Assembly: GCF_008124865.1 (NCBI RefSeq)
Contig: NZ_VNHY01000002.1
Location: 744,001-808,000 of the forward strand
Length of the DNA stretch: 64,000 nt
Direction of reading: 5' to 3'
DNA from: Fodinibius salinus
GTDB lineage: Bacteria > Bacteroidota > Rhodothermia > Balneolales > Balneolaceae
Shown here: positions 7,824-16,772 of the stretch, piece after piece
Layout: the number at the start of each line of letters is the position of its first letter
How positions within the stretch are numbered: the stretch's first letter is position 1
Notes under the pieces: model-generated
What the model saw: the letters and a program-made list of their open reading frames with translations, nothing else
What the model was told of the DNA's origin: nothing
Database searches by the model: none
Made by a program: the position numbers and the translations under genes

Positions 7824-9428
7824 ATGTCTTATAAACTACTATCATTAGCTGCGCTACTGGGCGGACTCCTGGTGTTTGGCAGCTGCAACTCCAACAATAC
7901 CAAACCACAAGACGATGATACCAAACCGCAATATAAGCTCACCCTGAGTGCCTCTCCCTCCAATGGGGGTAGTGTATCGCCTACTGAACAGCTATACCAA
8001 GAAGGCAGCACGGCCGAAATTGCGGCCACTTCCAGCCAAGAGTGGATCTTCGCGGGCTGGGAAGGAGACCACACCGGCACCAGCAGCACAACCACTATTA
8101 CGGTGGATTCGGATAAAAATATTACGGCGATCTTTGAGAAAAAGCAGTATGCCCTTACGATCAATACCACCGGACAGGGCAACGTGGACCAACAGGTGGT
8201 CTCGAGTAAACCCACCGATTACGATAGCGGCACGGTGGTAGAGCTGACGGCCAACCCCAATGCGGACTGGAAGTTTGTAGAATGGCAGGGGGCGATCACG
8301 GGCTCCGGCAATCCCCAGCAGATAACCATTGACGAGCCTAAAGAGGTAACGGCGGTATTTGAGGCATTTTACCTGGCATCCAACGGAGTGACCATCATCT
8401 GTGAAGCAGCTAGCGTGGGTGATACCGGCACGATCAACGGTACAACTTATACCAAGCGCAGCAAGTCCCAGATCACTCCTTCCAATGCCCCCACCACTTG
8501 TACCTCCGGTATCACCGATATGAGCAATTTATTTGATGGGGCCAGCACCTTTAATGGGGATATTAGCCACTGGGATGTATCCAGCGTGACAAATATGAGT
8601 TCTATGTTTTATATAGCGGATGTTTTTAACGGAGACCTTAGCAGCTGGGATGTGTCCGGGGTAACGAATATGAGTGCCATGTTTCAAGGTGCTAGTTCCT
8701 TCAATCAAAATCTGAGTAGTTGGGATGTTTCGGCAGTAACTGATATGAATTCAATGTTTGCTGGTGCTTCAGCCTTTAATCAGGATCTTACCAACTGGAA
8801 TGTATCTTCGGTGACGGATATGGGCGTTATGTTTGCTGGAGCAGATGCCTTCAACGGAGATATCAGCGGCTGGGATGTCAGTAGTGTGACAGAAATGAGC
8901 CGTATGTTTGAGGATGCCGATGTTTTTGACGGGGGTATTGGCAGCTGGGATGTGGGGAGTGTAGAAAATATGCGTCAAATGTTTAAAGATGCCTCTTCCT
9001 TTGATGGAAATATCAGCAGTTGGGATGTGTCAAATGTGACAAATATGCGTTACATGTTTGCTTTTGCTTTTGTCTTCAACGGAGATATCAGCAACTGGAA
9101 TGTTAGTAGTGTAACGAATATGAGCTTTATGTTTCAGTATGCTAATGCTTTTAATGGAGATCTTAGCAACTGGGATGTATCCTCCGTAACTGACATGTAT
9201 AGTATGTTTAGGTCTGCCAACTCTTTTAATCAAGATATTGGCAGCTGGAATACCTCGGCAGTAACCAATATGGATTTCATGTTTAATGATGCTTCATCCT
9301 TCAACCAGGATATTAGCACTTGGTGTGTATCCAACATTTCGTCAGAGCCCACTGATTTTGATACCAATGCCGGTTTTGACGGGAATAGCAGCATTCAGCC
9401 GCAGTGGGGCACATGTCCCAGCCCGTAG
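7824..9428 (+). CDS. Lipoprotein with two InlB-like B-repeats and a BspA-type 25-residue repeat array
   Basis: A 534-residue surface lipoprotein. A signal peptide ends in a lipobox (VFGSC, about residue 21). Two copies of a divergent InlB B-repeat follow (about 37-110 and 110-182), each with (K/A)LTL or LTI strands, an F-x-G-W or F-V-E-W motif and a closing (I/V)TAIFE or VTAVFE. From about residue 243 ten in-register repeats of 25 residues follow, consensus F-N-G-D-I-S-x-W-D-V-S-S-V-T-N-M-x-x-M-F, of the BspA/DUF285 type, with partial copies at each end. Such proteins are cell-surface adhesins or mucin/host-ligand binders in other genera. Here the ligand is unknown. No sorting domain follows, so anchoring would be by lipid. 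A terminator follows about 75 bp downstream. Confidence 0.88.
   Translation: MSYKLLSLAALLGGLLVFGSCNSNNTKPQDDDTKPQYKLTLSASPSNGGSVSPTEQLYQEGSTAEIAATSSQEWIFAGWEGDHTGTSSTTTITVDSDKNITAIFEKKQYALTINTTGQGNVDQQVVSSKPTDYDSGTVVELTANPNADWKFVEWQGAITGSGNPQQITIDEPKEVTAVFEAFYLASNGVTIICEAASVGDTGTINGTTYTKRSKSQITPSNAPTTCTSGITDMSNLFDGASTFNGDISHWDVSSVTNMSSMFYIADVFNGDLSSWDVSGVTNMSAMFQGASSFNQNLSSWDVSAVTDMNSMFAGASAFNQDLTNWNVSSVTDMGVMFAGADAFNGDISGWDVSSVTEMSRMFEDADVFDGGIGSWDVGSVENMRQMFKDASSFDGNISSWDVSNVTNMRYMFAFAFVFNGDISNWNVSSVTNMSFMFQYANAFNGDLSNWDVSSVTDMYSMFRSANSFNQDIGSWNTSAVTNMDFMFNDASSFNQDISTWCVSNISSEPTDFDTNAGFDGNSSIQPQWGTCPSP
8550..9299 (+). repeat. Ten tandem 75-bp coding repeats
   Basis: Ten consecutive 75-bp units, exactly in register, encode the 25-residue BspA/DUF285 repeats. 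Each unit begins TTT or TTC (Phe) and contains the W-D-V or W-N-V core codons. The units differ at many synonymous and variable positions, so the array is old rather than freshly expanded. A partial unit precedes 8550 and another follows 9299. Confidence 0.9.
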
Positions 9429-10026: not shown

Positions 10027-10530
10027 ATGAAAACTATTATGATATTGCGTCATGCCGAAGCTCAGCGAGGCGGCAGCGCATCTACAGATAAGAAGCGAAA
10101 GCTAACTGCTAAGGGGCGTGGCGATGCGACCAAAATTGGGCAGTTTCTTGATCAGCAAAGTATTGCAGCTGGTTATATCGAGAGTTCAACGGCTAAGCGT
10201 GCCCGGGAGACTACTACCTTATTAGCAGAAAGTGCTGGCCTGAGCCTGAATATTAATTGGAATGATAATTTTTATTCGGGCGGTCCGGCAGATTATCACC
10301 AGGCTATCCGGCAGGCACCCGATGAGGTGGATAATATATTACTGGTCGGACATAATCCGCTGGTTTCTAGGCTGGTATCAGGGCTGTGCAGCAGCGAAGG
10401 GCAGTATCTTGTTCGCATGCTCCAGGGTACGTTGGTGTGTATGGAGCATCCCGCAATAAGCTGGGATCAGGTTGAGCCGGGAACAGCGCGCCTGCAGTGG
10501 ATGGTGACGCCGGAGATACTGAATAGTTAA
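10027..10530 (+). CDS. sixA: SixA-type histidine phosphatase
   Basis: The 167-residue protein begins TIMILRHAEAQRGG, the RHG-type phosphatase motif in which the His accepts phosphate. It also contains IESSTAKRARETTTLL (second conserved Arg) and ILLVGHNPLVSRLV (second catalytic His), the layout of SixA-like short histidine phosphatases. E. coli SixA removes phosphate from phosphohistidine on the ArcB HPt domain and PtsN-pathway proteins. The target here is unknown. The stop overlaps the stop of the convergent SulP gene by 4 bp. Confidence 0.9.
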   Translation: MKTIMILRHAEAQRGGSASTDKKRKLTAKGRGDATKIGQFLDQQSIAAGYIESSTAKRARETTTLLAESAGLSLNINWNDNFYSGGPADYHQAIRQAPDEVDNILLVGHNPLVSRLVSGLCSSEGQYLVRMLQGTLVCMEHPAISWDQVEPGTARLQWMVTPEILNS

Positions 10531-12251
10531 CCGCTTATATCGTCATAGTTTTCCATTTGTGCTTCGTTGCCTATTTCTTTTAAAATCGCTTTAACGGCTT
10601 CATGCGGTTCTCTGAAAAAATGATCTTCTCCCAGAAATTCCCGTAGTCCGGATTTGTCAACAACATCGCGCACAGGGCCTTTTAAGCCGGCGATATATAG
10701 CTCAATATCCCAGTTTTCGAGCATGGAAATCATTGACTTTATTTTTTCGATGGCGGTAGTATCAAGGGAGTTAATGGCGGTTCCGTCAATTAAGACATAC
10801 TGTGTTGAGTTATTGCGTCGTCGGCTCTTGTCCAGAATATAGTCCCTGAAAAAATCGGCATTAATAAATGAGAACGAAGCATCAACCCGAAGAATGAGTA
10901 TCCTGTCGATGGTTTCCGCCTCGGGATTGCGGTCAAGGTTTTTAAATAGCCTGGTATCGGGGATAATGCCCAGCTCTGCCACACTCGGGCGGCTGTACTT
11001 GTACAGCATGTGAAGCATTGAAGCTACTACGCCGAGCAGAATACCCTCTTGGATACCGATCAGAAGTGTGCATATAGCGGTAAAAGAAGCAATGAGCCCC
11101 TCGCTGTGTTTAGTAGAATACAAAAATACAAACTCTGAAATGTCGATGAGGTTCAGGGCCGAAACGATAATAATGGCTGCAAGAATGGGCATTGGCAAAT
11201 AATAGAAAATAGGCGTCAACAACAGCAGTGTACCAATAATTACCGCAGAGGTGATGAGGTTGGCCAGTGGTGTTTGAACATTGGCTTGCTCGGAGGCCGC
11301 CGACCGTGAAAAGCTGCCCGAAACGGGAATAGACTGGAAGAAACTACCCAAAAAATTAGAGGCTCCAATAGCTACAAGCTCATGATTTGCATCAATGATA
11401 TAGTCGTTACGCTTGGCAAAGGTTTGGCCCAGCGAAGCTACGTTCATAAATTGTACCAATGCAAGAGTAAGAGCCGTGGGCAGTAGCTCCCGCATATTGT
11501 TAAAGTTGATACTGGGTAGTTTAATAGGGGGTAAACCTTCGGGGATGGAGCCTACCAGCTCAATGCCTATCGATTGTGCATCTATACTCCATGCCAGAAA
11601 GATACCACCGCCGAGGATAATAACCGAGGTGGGAACAACTGGGTCGATGTATTTGCCGATCCCCAGTATGGCTATGGCAGCGGTGCCCCAGAGTAGTGTT
11701 TGTAAGTGGATGGCATCCCAGTTGGTAACTACCTCTTCAATGATAGTAATAACATACTGGGTGTTGGGTAGAGAGATCCCCAGAAGATGGTTGAGTTGTG
11801 AAAATGCTATGATAATGGGAGCGGCTAGGGTAAAGCCGGCAATAACAGGACGAGAAAATACATTAAGTACTGCACCCAGCTGTATGGAGCCCATCAGGAG
11901 TTGTAGTCCCCCGGCCATCATTGTTAATAAGATAGCAAGGCTGATATATTGCTCTGTGTTAGGTTCGGCCAGCAGGCTGATACCTGCGGCAATAATGAGC
12001 ATGTCAATAGCAACGGGGCCAATGGATAAATTTTTAGAGGTGCCCAGCAGTGGATAAATAAGCAGGGGAACTACACCCGCATATAACCCATAAATAGGTG
12101 GGACGCCTGCAATTACGGCATAGGCCATTCCTTGGGGAATGAACATAATACCCGTTGTTAACCCCGCGGTAAGGTCCCCCAAAAATTTCTGCCTATTATA
12201 TTCGGGCAGCCAGCCGGTAATGGTAAATGTTTTTTTAAACCATTGCTTCAT
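10527..12251 (-). CDS. SulP family inorganic anion transporter with STAS domain
   Basis: A 574-residue SLC26/SulP transporter. The N-terminal membrane domain includes LGDLTAGLTTGIMFIPQGMA and YAVIAGVPPIYGLYAGVVP, the family signature, and a later QTFAKRNDYIIDANHELVAIGASN loop region. A cytoplasmic STAS domain occupies about residues 435-555 (ILRVDASFSFINADFF, then YVLIDGTAINSLDTTAIEKI). Substrates in the family include sulfate, bicarbonate and dicarboxylates. It ends 4 bp inside the sixA stop on the other strand and starts 3 bp after the SLC13 gene stop, so the two transporters form an operon. Confidence 0.92.
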   Translation of the reverse strand: MKQWFKKTFTITGWLPEYNRQKFLGDLTAGLTTGIMFIPQGMAYAVIAGVPPIYGLYAGVVPLLIYPLLGTSKNLSIGPVAIDMLIIAAGISLLAEPNTEQYISLAILLTMMAGGLQLLMGSIQLGAVLNVFSRPVIAGFTLAAPIIIAFSQLNHLLGISLPNTQYVITIIEEVVTNWDAIHLQTLLWGTAAIAILGIGKYIDPVVPTSVIILGGGIFLAWSIDAQSIGIELVGSIPEGLPPIKLPSINFNNMRELLPTALTLALVQFMNVASLGQTFAKRNDYIIDANHELVAIGASNFLGSFFQSIPVSGSFSRSAASEQANVQTPLANLITSAVIIGTLLLLTPIFYYLPMPILAAIIIVSALNLIDISEFVFLYSTKHSEGLIASFTAICTLLIGIQEGILLGVVASMLHMLYKYSRPSVAELGIIPDTRLFKNLDRNPEAETIDRILILRVDASFSFINADFFRDYILDKSRRRNNSTQYVLIDGTAINSLDTTAIEKIKSMISMLENWDIELYIAGLKGPVRDVVDKSGLREFLGEDHFFREPHEAVKAILKEIGNEAQMENYDDISG

Positions 12252-12254
12252 AAG

Positions 12255-14033
12255 TTAAAAGGGCCAAAAAATTGGGATAAATATGGTAGCCAATATCCAA
12301 AAAAGAATATTTAACGGCAGTCCTATTTTTGTGAAGTCAGTAAATTTATATTGTCCAGCTCCGTAAATCAAGGTATTAGTTTGGTAACCAAAGGGCGTAA
12401 TAAAACTTAATGATGCTGCAAAGGTGACGGCAAATAGCAGCGGATGAGGATCAATGCCCATTGAGTTGGCCGACTCTATGGCGATTGGTGCCAATAGAGC
12501 TGCTGATGCATTGTTTGACATTACAGCAGTAATGCCCGTGGTGAGCAGAAAAAATCCTGACAAGACAGCTCGCGGACCAAAATCAGAAAGCAGGGCAATC
12601 ATTTGGTTTGCCAGTAAATTAGCTGCTCCTGTTTTATCCATAGCTGTTCCTAATGGAATGACACCGGCAAGCAGGATGATAACTTTCCAGTTGACCGCGT
12701 TATATGCTTCTTCTGTAGTCAGGCATTGGGTCATCATTAGCAGGATAACACCAGCGATGGCGCTTACAACAATGGGGACGATATTGAAGGCTGCTGCAGC
12801 GACAACACCTGCAATAATACTAAGCACAATGGGTGTTTTCTCCCTCCGTTTCTTGCTCACATCAGCCTCAGATGCGACAACAAATGATGGAGCATGGTCA
12901 ATTTCTTGTATGCGTTCCTTACTGATACTCAGCAGCAAGGTATCTCCGCCGGATAGGCGAAAACTATCGAGATCTTCTTGTTCAATTTGTCCGTGGTGAC
13001 GTATGGCAAGAGGAACAGCCCCATAGCGTTCGGCGAAACTGATTTCACTCAATGTTTTTCCTTGGAGGGGAGATTCAGGAGCAATAACAGCCTCAACCAA
13101 GGCATCGGTACCGCGTTCTAAATGGACATCCATCCATTCTTTGGTTGGCTTTAGGGTAAAATCATTACGATTCAGCAGCTTATTTATTTCGGATGCACTG
13201 CCTCGAATCCTCAGCGTATCACCTGCTTCAATTTTTGTTTTGGTACGCTGTGCTGAACGGTTACTCTCTGGTTTAAAAATTCGGATGACGTCAAGATCCA
13301 GTTTTTTTGTAAGTTCTTCTTCGTCTAGATACTCATCCAATAAATTACTGGTTGGATTGATAATAATATCAGTCAAGAACTCTTGCATTTCGTAGCCTGT
13401 TGTAAGTTGTTCATTTTCACGCCGATTGGGAATCATTCGGATACCTATCGTAAACATGAACAGAAAACCGCTACCCAGCAGAATAAGACCCATAGGTGAA
13501 AATTCAAACATCGAAAAGGGAGCAAGTCCGCGGTCTTCGGCAATGGAACTTACAAGGATGTTGGTAGAGGTGCCGATGAATGTACAGATACCGCCAAATA
13601 TTCCTGCAAAAGAAAGGGGCATTAGCAGTTTTGAGGGGCTTATTTCAATGCGTGCAGCAATGTCCATCATAACCGGAATAAAGATAACTACCACTGCTGT
13701 ATTATTAATAAAGGCCGACGAAACGCTGACAAATAATAGTAGTTGAAAGAGGCCCAACCCAAAATTCTGTTCAATTTTTTGGGTAAAATAATCACCTACA
13801 GTATTTAATACCCCCGTCTTGCGCAATCCCTCACTAAGGATAAACATAGCTGCGACGGTTATAGTAGCCGGATTACTGAAACCGGCAAGTCCTTCTCTTG
13901 GTGACAAAATACCGCTACTAACAAGGCTTAACAGCAGGATAAGAGCCGTTATATCAAACGATACGTAATCAGTAGCAAACAGGATGAATGCAATTGCTAA
14001 TAATCCGAAGACAAATATAATTTCAAATGACAT
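12255..14033 (-). CDS. SLC13/DASS family permease with two TrkA-C (RCK_C) domains
   Basis: A 592-residue transporter. Five or six helices are followed by a cytoplasmic insert (about residues 205-380) holding two RCK_C/TrkA-C modules. These are recognisable as IRIFKPESNRSAQRTKTKIE then AGDTLRIRG, and VIAPESPLQGKTLSEISFAE then SGGDTLLLSI. A second membrane half follows with TGITAVMSNNASAALLAPIA and FITPFGYQTNTLIYGAG. The first half has FINNTAVVVIFIPVM. The S/N-N-T/A motifs are the sodium and carboxylate sites of the DASS superfamily. Proteins with this insert are commonly annotated as sulfate or anion:sodium symporters. Coupling with the SulP gene 3 bp downstream supports an inorganic-anion role. 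Confidence 0.9.
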   Translation of the reverse strand: MSFEIIFVFGLLAIAFILFATDYVSFDITALILLLSLVSSGILSPREGLAGFSNPATITVAAMFILSEGLRKTGVLNTVGDYFTQKIEQNFGLGLFQLLLFVSVSSAFINNTAVVVIFIPVMMDIAARIEISPSKLLMPLSFAGIFGGICTFIGTSTNILVSSIAEDRGLAPFSMFEFSPMGLILLGSGFLFMFTIGIRMIPNRRENEQLTTGYEMQEFLTDIIINPTSNLLDEYLDEEELTKKLDLDVIRIFKPESNRSAQRTKTKIEAGDTLRIRGSASEINKLLNRNDFTLKPTKEWMDVHLERGTDALVEAVIAPESPLQGKTLSEISFAERYGAVPLAIRHHGQIEQEDLDSFRLSGGDTLLLSISKERIQEIDHAPSFVVASEADVSKKRREKTPIVLSIIAGVVAAAAFNIVPIVVSAIAGVILLMMTQCLTTEEAYNAVNWKVIILLAGVIPLGTAMDKTGAANLLANQMIALLSDFGPRAVLSGFFLLTTGITAVMSNNASAALLAPIAIESANSMGIDPHPLLFAVTFAASLSFITPFGYQTNTLIYGAGQYKFTDFTKIGLPLNILFWILATIFIPIFWPF

Positions 14034-14102: not shown

Positions 14103-16304
14103 TTATTCTTTGAGTTCTTTTAGTAAACGATCTGCGCTAAAATGTTGGTCCAGTAAATATCGAATATATTGGACATTTACATTGATAGTACGATTTAATT
14201 TGGGATCATAAAAGTAATCACCCGCAGCTGCCTGTAGGTTTCTGTCATATGCAAGTCCTATTAATTGTCCGTCGGTATTTAGTATAGGTGCACCTCGGCT
14301 GCCACCTGTTATATCATTAGTTGTCAAAAAATTAGGCCGTGGGATCTTACTGGTGTCTTTTTTGAGTGAGGGGGGAAGTTTGGACAGCGTGCTGTCGGAT
14401 AATGTACGAAAGTTTGAAAATGGAGTGTAATTGGTACTGCTTGTTGTCACTCCCCGTACGGTCCCGCTGCTTAAACGTAGAGTGCCGTTAGCATCTGGAT
14501 AGAGAGTAGAATCTCTAAGAAATGTGAGCATGCCCTGTTGGTATCGTCGTTGAGCAGGACGCAGGTATGCAAAATGTTGCATATAGTTTTTCCGGCTGTA
14601 TCGATAGGTATCAACAATTTCTTGGTACAGTTTTACCATTGCATCAACCGGTTGCTTACGCGCTTCAGCCGCAGGCAGCGAAACAAACTTTTTAGCGTTA
14701 TCAGTGTTAAAGATAATAGATTGCTCTTGTTGTGTTTTTAGGTATTGACGGATTTCCTCTTTGAGTTTGTCGTCGTCAGCCTCCCCAAACTGCTGTAGCA
14801 GGTAAAACATTACTTTACCTTCGGGCAGGGTAGCCAGAACGTGCAGCATGTTGGCAAGCATCCGCCGTTGTGTATCGATATTTATGGACTGCAGGATTTG
14901 TTGCTGTTTAGTAAGCAGACTATCTTTTTTGGCCTGTATCGGCTCGGTATTGGTCGAGTCGCTAATATACTCTCGGTAGGAATCGTACAGCCCGGCAATC
15001 TCCAGCAGCTTACTGTTATTGAGTGGGTAGACGAGTGCATACAGCATGTCGCCGGTTTGGGATCGTATATTGTAGGCCTGCTCCAGCTGACTCAATACCC
15101 GTCGATATTTGATCTCTCGCAGAGAGTCTTGTTCCGTCCAGTTTTTAAATTGTTGTTCAAGCACTCGTTTTTGTTCAGCGGGATGATATTGCTCAAATCC
15201 CTGCTGAATGCCATAGTAGTAGGTTAGATTGTCGGCGGCCGATATTTTGCTGAGGGAGGGTGGTTTGGTTTGTTTCTGGTTACTAAACTGTTGAGCATCT
15301 AAGATAGAGTGGTATAATTTAGTGAGTACAGGATTGCGGATGTTCTGATAAAAGTTGAGACCGTAGCTACTTTTATTTCTGAATGTTTGACCGGGAAAAC
15401 TAAGTGTAAAGGTAAAGTCATCCGTCGAAACCATTTCGTTGCTTATGTTTAGATGCTTAGCTGGTGTAAAGGGAACGTTAGAGGACTGGTAGGTCTGGCT
15501 TTTCCCTTCGGGACTTACATACGCTCGTAAAAATGAAAAACTGGCTGAATATTGTGGCCATTTCCAGTTGGAGCTTATACCGCCGAATCGGGCAATAGCT
15601 TCTGGTGGCATCTGTACAAGCCGTACATCTCTTATCACTTTATACACTGACATATATTGCTGGTTGCCTGCCCAGAGATCGTTGATTTCTACTTTTAGAT
15701 TCTTGTTATCCTGCTTGCGTTTATTAATAAGCTGCTTTTTTATTTGCTGTATTTGTTTCTGTTCTTCGCGGTAGGTCAGGGAGTCGGCCAGTAGCTTGTT
15801 AATTTGATCTGTTACATCCCGCTGTTCAATCGTAATGCGTAAAGTGATACCTGGAAGTGGTATTTCATCTTCTGCGCCGCCGGCATAAAATCCGTTAGAA
15901 CGATAATGGGTAACATTATCTTTAGAGGAAGAAAGTGCTTCTAGGGCTGGATAATAATTGGTGAGGACGAGTCCATCCGGGGAAACAAACGATCCGCTGG
16001 CACTGCTGTTGGGAGCGGTGTTAATCTGCACAACTGCCTGGCTAAGAGAAGGTTGTTCTGGACTGTAAATACTTGGGGAATCAATGTTAAGGCCGTTTTT
16101 TTTCATTTGGTTGTGTACCGTACCGTTTACTTGGGGTAAGAGCCACATACTGCCTTTCTGGGTGGTATCGCGGATCTCATATGTGGGTGGCGGCAATGGT
16201 TTTGAGGAGGACAGTGATGAGGGGGGAGAACAGGCCGAACACAACAGAACAGCTATAAGAAAAGAACAAATCGATAATGCAAATGAGGGTCGAGATTGAT
16301 TCAT
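14103..16304 (-). CDS. S46-family (DPP7/DPP11-like) exported protein lacking the catalytic triad
   Basis: A 733-residue exported protein with an N-terminal hydrophobic signal and a possible lipid-attachment Cys (residue 22 or 25). The S46 dipeptidyl-peptidase framework is clear: GSFVSPDGLVLTNYYPALEA (about 104-123), SNGFYAGGAEDEIPLPG, SNWKWPQYSASFSFLRAYVS (about 245-264) and NDITGGSRGAPILNTDGQLI (near 664-683). Active S46 enzymes have T-N-H-H-C, R-H-T-G-D-(F/W)-S and G-G-N-S-G-S-P. Here the His positions are Tyr117/Tyr118, the Asp position is Ser255 and the Ser position is Arg670. Length is normal and the frame is open, so it is probably a retained pseudoenzyme rather than a decayed gene. About 70 bp separate it from the SLC13 gene. 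Confidence 0.88.
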   Translation of the reverse strand: MNQSRPSFALSICSFLIAVLLCSACSPPSSLSSSKPLPPPTYEIRDTTQKGSMWLLPQVNGTVHNQMKKNGLNIDSPSIYSPEQPSLSQAVVQINTAPNSSASGSFVSPDGLVLTNYYPALEALSSSKDNVTHYRSNGFYAGGAEDEIPLPGITLRITIEQRDVTDQINKLLADSLTYREEQKQIQQIKKQLINKRKQDNKNLKVEINDLWAGNQQYMSVYKVIRDVRLVQMPPEAIARFGGISSNWKWPQYSASFSFLRAYVSPEGKSQTYQSSNVPFTPAKHLNISNEMVSTDDFTFTLSFPGQTFRNKSSYGLNFYQNIRNPVLTKLYHSILDAQQFSNQKQTKPPSLSKISAADNLTYYYGIQQGFEQYHPAEQKRVLEQQFKNWTEQDSLREIKYRRVLSQLEQAYNIRSQTGDMLYALVYPLNNSKLLEIAGLYDSYREYISDSTNTEPIQAKKDSLLTKQQQILQSINIDTQRRMLANMLHVLATLPEGKVMFYLLQQFGEADDDKLKEEIRQYLKTQQEQSIIFNTDNAKKFVSLPAAEARKQPVDAMVKLYQEIVDTYRYSRKNYMQHFAYLRPAQRRYQQGMLTFLRDSTLYPDANGTLRLSSGTVRGVTTSSTNYTPFSNFRTLSDSTLSKLPPSLKKDTSKIPRPNFLTTNDITGGSRGAPILNTDGQLIGLAYDRNLQAAAGDYFYDPKLNRTINVNVQYIRYLLDQHFSADRLLKELKE

Positions 16305-16421: not shown

Positions 16422-16772
16422 ATGAAGTACAAACACAAGTTTTTTTATCTCTGTAAGATACCGCTAAGTGCCGAAGGTCCAAAGGATGTTGAAATTATAG
16501 ATCGTGCCGAAAAGACCGATGAGTTCCCTGAGTTGTTCGATGAATATGAGGAGCTTCGCTCACATGCCTTTAATGATGATAAACTGTATAGTATTATCCG
16601 GGCTGACGATATTCTTGAGCTGCTTCGCACGGGGACTAGAGAAGAAGCTGAGAAAAAGGCATTTGAAAATGCTCAGCAAGAGATTATTACCAACCTGCAG
16701 CATAAAGTGATGCAGGATGAAGACAAAGAAGCGAAAGCTATTCTCAAAGAAGTTCATGATGTAGAAGCATAG
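16422..16772 (+). CDS. Conserved-looking hypothetical protein
   Basis: A 116-residue acidic, mostly helical protein. A short beta-like N-terminus (KHKFFYLCKIPLSAEG) is followed by charged helices (EELFDEYEEL-like and EEAEKKAFENAQQEI regions, about 36-110). There is no signal peptide, membrane segment or known motif. The gene is divergent from the S46-family gene and 34 bp upstream of a pseudouridine synthase in the same direction, so the two are probably co-transcribed. I do not recognise a family. Confidence 0.7.
   Translation: MKYKHKFFYLCKIPLSAEGPKDVEIIDRAEKTDEFPELFDEYEELRSHAFNDDKLYSIIRADDILELLRTGTREEAEKKAFENAQQEIITNLQHKVMQDEDKEAKAILKEVHDVEA

Follow-up and report, generated by a model that had tools for sequence, protein, structure and literature searches.

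Is a protein that matches the S46 dipeptidyl-peptidase family over its whole length, but carries none of the three catalytic residues, a gene on its way out or a protein that its host still uses? The question is raised by an open reading frame at 14103..16304 (minus strand) of the window, by which we mean the whole 64,000-nucleotide stretch of the Fodinibius salinus genome analysed here. The frame translates without a stop into 733 amino acids. The Pfam profile PF10459 (Peptidase_S46) matches residues 49-732 with 443.8 bits (E=1.8e-132, cut-off 22 bits), and 2-697 of its 698 positions are covered, which makes the protein a full-length S46 homologue; strand, length, scaffold and motif positions are as an earlier note on this DNA had described them. 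Its score against the NCBIfam DPP7 equivalog NF053519 is 317 bits, below the curated cut-off of 1200. All parts of the fold (half-barrel, inserted helical domain, half-barrel) are spanned by sequence alignment, the alpha-helical cap lying at about residues 284-590 (14535..15455, borders by homology with SmDPP7); a structure predicted from a five-row alignment only reached a mean pLDDT of 34.8 and was not used. At 98.5% completeness, the assembly contains no other S46 gene.

The triad columns were set by phmmer alignment to the PDB chains of solved S46 structures (DPP11 5jxf and relatives). The alignments are gapless in the motifs, LTNYYP being paired with LTNHHC, WPQYSASFS with WPRHTGDFS and GGSRGAP with GGNSGSP. 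On the minus strand, the former His motif TNYYP (residues 115-119, 15948..15962) bears Tyr118 at the catalytic His column (codon TAT, 15951-15953), the former Asp motif QYSASFS (251-257, 15534..15554) bears Ser255 at the Asp column (AGT, 15540-15542), and the former Ser motif GGSRGAP (667-673, 14286..14306) bears Arg670 at the Ser column (CGA, 14295-14297). The SmDPP7 triad consists of His84, Asp222 and Ser655 (PMC8041751). The earlier note had read a replacement of the whole triad from the codons and proposed an alignment as a check; the replacement is confirmed at all three columns. A shifted triad is ruled out by the gapless motifs, near which no conserved His or Asp lies.

An S46 match is present in 31 of the 92 genomes of the window's family, and the sequences fall into four groups in a multiple alignment. 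Group A comprises canonical S46 genes at other loci. Group B (genera g11 and g17) has an intact triad wherever the sequence covers it, group C holds seven species of the window's own genus g1 (Fodinibius/Aliifodinibius, with Aliifodinibius salipaludis WN023 and Fodinibius halophilus 2W32 among the strains on record with an S46 orthologue), and group D seven genomes of genera g5, g7 and g10. The catalytic His is replaced in 7/7 proteins of clade C (Y, Q, R, N, S, S, R), the Ser in 5/7 and the Asp in 2/7; in clade D all three residues are lost. Over C and D together (n=14), His is absent from every protein and Ser from 12, and all 14 are full-length likely lipoproteins. The 13 further syntenic orthologues without an intact triad rule out chance or an assembly error as the source of the substitutions. 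By comparison, 52 of the 62 other S46 sequences collected (a set in which a few genes appear more than once) have the full HDS triad, nine are fragments that fit it and one reads SDC. The earlier note had suggested a search for orthologues with the same substitutions. It is the positions lost that they have in common; the replacements differ, with 12 different triplets among the 14 proteins, none of them HDS.

Three species of clade C (the window's own, G013 and G018) share a change from Asn to Ser one position before the lost nucleophile (GGSxG, 14298-14300 in the window gene), perhaps as a structural compensation. In another family of the class, a degenerate 429-residue S46-like frame (L164, G279:C169:8220-9137) has S, D and C at the triad columns, lacks most of the helical-domain part and directly precedes an intact S46 gene; it could be an independent S46 pseudoenzyme derived from a duplicate.

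How the triad was lost can be read in part from the trees. With three families of the order as outgroup, an rpoB tree places group B outside the C and D hosts, which form one group (support 86), and in the rooted S46 tree (LG+F+G4) C and D group together (SH-aLRT 100, UFBoot 95) with B as their sister. Thirteen of the 14 C and D proteins have Tyr at position 117, where the HH pair has its first His; one C species keeps His there, as do B and the canonical sequences. Because the rooted trees group C with D and because Tyr117 is so widely shared, we favour one loss of the catalytic His in the ancestor of both clades, with Asp and Ser probably lost repeatedly afterwards. Two losses are nevertheless possible, since neither of the alternative groupings that imply them is rejected by the AU test (p=0.16 and 0.20). 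The S46 gene tree nests D within C, but with a bootstrap of 47 and a long branch.

The locus itself points to descent in place. Wherever enough flanking sequence is available in groups B, C and D, the S46 gene lies between a SixA-like histidine phosphatase gene (10027..10530, plus strand, in the window) and a divergently transcribed frame of 116 amino acids (16422..16772, plus strand). The latter has no Pfam or NCBIfam family match but is found in 88 of the 92 family genomes at 56-82% identity, and is a conserved uncharacterised protein. An active orthologue from another family of the order (G346) is flanked by the same 116-residue frame and an MBL gene. This shared position is best explained by vertical inheritance of the gene from an active ancestor at the locus. 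Among the matches listed for the S46-less genomes checked, none lies at the anchor locus except one in G021, where a 420-residue frame near the syntenic anchor (L096:2458-3717) gives a weak S46 profile match (E=7e-9).

In genus g1 the same interval also holds genes for a SulP transporter with a STAS domain (10527..12251, minus strand) and a DASS/CitMHS-type anion transporter (12255..14033, minus strand), the latter directly downstream of the S46 gene. A functional link with these transporters is unsupported, as they persist in the genus whether or not the S46 gene is present, and are missing beside the S46 genes of B and D. The DASS protein of the window shares only about 30% identity with the one next to the S46 gene in G013 (L037:8621-10435), but 62-65% with those in the same place in the other S46-bearing species of the genus; at this fixed locus, a distant homologue has probably replaced the gene in G013. 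Elsewhere in the window, between the MatE and SixA-like genes, 7824-9428 encodes a 534-residue protein with DUF285 and InlB-type B-repeats, of which no homologue was found between these two genes in the syntenic relatives listed.

The predicted signal peptide (16230..16304, minus strand) includes a lipobox-position Cys25 (16230-16232) that is invariant across 19 syntenic orthologues, active and inactive alike. Several relatives show a lipobox-like context around it (L-x-G/A-C); the CSAC of the window protein is non-canonical at -3. From this pattern, the S46 proteins of clades C and D are probably lipid-anchored and would face the periplasm or the cell surface.

Could such a protein still hold peptides without cutting them? 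SmDPP7 binds the amine of its substrate through Asn213, Trp214, Asp672 and Asn328, and its Arg218 positions Asp672, the R218A exchange abolishing activity (PMC8041751). Three of these four recognition residues are kept in the window protein, namely Asn246 and Trp247 (15564..15569, minus strand) and Asp687, which together with Arg688 occupies 14241..14246 (minus strand). Arg688 lies at the S1 determinant and is DPP11-like, whereas the active orthologues of clade B, 36-38% identical to the window protein, have Gly there, in a DPP7-like Asp-Gly pair. A peptide-binding protein or sensor that catches peptides by their free amino end, in the space between the barrel and the cap, would fit these residues. 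Yet the N-anchor Asn has become Asp358 (15231..15233, minus strand), the Arg that positions the amine-binding Asp has become Gln251, and the SmDPP7 Phe671 column holds Tyr686, so that the earlier note's statement that the rest of the motifs is conserved is overstated. The relatives have gone further: the Asn-Trp segment is deleted in G013 and G018, and the amine-binding Asp is lost in 5/7 C species and 6/7 D species. Since the relatives have lost the amine site, dipeptide capture is unlikely to be the shared role of the lineage, and the peptide binding that had been proposed is not supported as such a role. We regard a peptide-binding role as unlikely overall; capture by the window protein alone would be possible from the residues that it retains.

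The gene might instead be dying, its catalysis useless and its frame drifting towards loss. In favour of such a fate, the gene is cleanly absent from 5 of the 12 genomes of the window's genus and from many other genera, the triad has eroded in differing ways, and sequence change is faster here than in most neighbouring genes. This rate and these absences show that the gene is dispensable. The selection data argue against decay. The window species' own comparisons have saturated dS; among the pairs tried, one inactive pair, L037/L038 (from G013 and G018, neither being the window species), has a dS near 1 and is usable by both methods. For this pair NG86 gives a dN of 0.187 and a dS of 1.182, a ratio of 0.158 (bootstrap 0.115-0.188) that is not near 1, and YN00 gives a dN/dS of 0.22. 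No stop has arisen between these genes over about one synonymous change per site, where neutral simulation from L037 produces some 23 stops with 0.5 changes per site and some 29 with 1.0. The frame is full-length in 14 species, none of the seven genomes sampled from g5, g7 and g10 lacks the gene, and scaffold residues are conserved, those invariant in the 19 aligned syntenic orthologues including Asp226, Arg228, Arg260, Tyr262, Asp554, Asp604 and Glu730 besides Cys25. We therefore reject a decaying pseudogene on the ratio of this one pair and the open frames, and consider drift towards loss improbable. A retained non-catalytic protein, which the earlier note had preferred to a decaying gene, is in our judgement the probable state of this gene.

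By part of the protein, the dN/dS in L037/L038 is 0.77 for the leader and linker, 0.157 for the N-terminal part of the barrel, 0.099 for the helical domain and 0.153 for the C-terminal part of the barrel; the cap thus has the lowest value of the domains, in a ranking that is indicative only since dS varies between the parts. Terminal branches set against a concatenated neighbour tree suggest that the S46 genes of C and D evolve faster than those of B relative to their neighbours, and far from unconstrained. The active site has eroded preferentially, faster than the rest of the protein. Of the sites invariant in B, the ten functional ones have a retention of 0.40 in C, compared with 0.66 for the remainder (p=0.023); the corresponding values in D are 0.043 and 0.43 (p=0.0004). 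The C-terminal half-barrel, which bears the Ser, ranks first among the parts of the protein for conservation in B, with a mean identity of 0.67, and last in C, with 0.45.

Continued enzymatic activity, through a catalytic site that is rearranged or assisted by the substrate, appears very improbable. G010 and G014, which have lost His alone and keep Asp and Ser, would be compatible with residual catalysis, as would the Ser that precedes the lost nucleophile in the window genome (G000), G013 and G018. Against this, the His has not been replaced by any conserved candidate base or acid, and 12 triplets at the triad positions are unlike a new conserved active site. An inactive heterodimer partner of an active S46 peptidase, on the pattern of known protease-pseudoprotease pairs, is hardly credible: S46 enzymes are dimers (PMC8041751) and active paralogues are often regulated by pseudoproteases, but neither the window's genome nor any other C or D genome has a second S46 gene, and we reject regulation of an active S46 paralogue on this single-copy state. 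A partner from a non-S46 family is possible.

What then would a retained, non-catalytic S46 protein do, and how would it have arisen? We propose that the window gene is the direct descendant, at the ancestral locus, of an active and probably lipid-anchored S46 dipeptidyl peptidase. The catalytic His would have been lost in the common ancestor of part of the Balneolaceae, Asp and Ser would have drifted away several times later, and purifying selection would have kept the protein as a two-domain envelope lipoprotein made of a beta-barrel and a helical cap. Such a protein would be catalytically dead and lipid-anchored, acting in a binding or scaffold role through the surfaces of its fold. The helical cap would be the most likely contact surface, and the free amino end of a substrate would not be what is held. 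A binding or scaffold mechanism as such is plausible rather than probable. The fuller account, in which an extracytoplasmic dipeptidyl peptidase encoded by a single-copy gene turned, at its own locus and with no duplicate, into a new envelope lipoprotein that now uses cap and barrel to bind a partner unrelated to peptide ends, is somewhat more tentative.

If the conversion took place in this manner, living genera would preserve its steps, from an intact triad through loss of His only and loss of Asp or Ser to loss of all three residues together with the amine site. Such a natural series would trace a single locus from a working enzyme to complete loss, in genomes where no S46 paralogue serves as a back-up. 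With this series, the order of events in the death of an enzyme, and what selects for its scaffold, become directly testable. In practice, an S46 annotation in the Balneolaceae need not mean dipeptide-producing activity. Pseudoproteases are a known kind of protein, and non-peptidase homologues are listed in MEROPS for many families. A lineage of S46 proteins lacking the triad was not reported in the literature searched, most subscription journals being outside its coverage.

Comparison with known systems places the window protein more precisely. It resembles the members of peptidase family S46 (DPP7, DPP11, DAP BII) by sequence in its whole length, domain order, motif positions and part of the amine set, and differs from them in the replaced His, Asp and Ser, the invariant lipobox-position Cys and the erosion of substrate-site residues in its clade. 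Its sequence and ancestry make it an S46 member, one that lacks the triad of an active S46 dipeptidyl peptidase. The syntenic S46 proteins of g11, g17 and G346 are its direct active orthologues, with the same locus and lipobox-position Cys; unlike the window protein, they have an intact HDS triad and, at the S1 determinant, a DPP7-like Asp-Gly. The window protein probably belongs among the pseudoproteases, catalytic residues being replaced across a lineage of orthologues and purifying selection persisting after the loss in the one pair that could be used. MamO, a repurposed trypsin-like pseudoprotease of magnetotactic bacteria, is likewise a bacterial protease (of the chymotrypsin fold) that lost catalysis and was retained for another function (PMC4794232). 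However, MamO has its His and Asp intact, the nucleophile being Thr, and it arose beside a redundant active protease (PMC4794232), whereas the window's sole S46 gene would have been converted in place. The subtilisin-like CspC of Clostridioides difficile is also a bacterial serine pseudoprotease, with a role in sensing, but has an unrelated fold and works with an active family member (PMC6636752). The pseudo-orthocaspases, finally, form a bacterial pseudopeptidase lineage in which the catalytic His has likewise become Tyr, though in a cysteine-peptidase fold and with Tyr and Ser as typical replacements (PMC6426788), where those of S46 clades C and D are variable.
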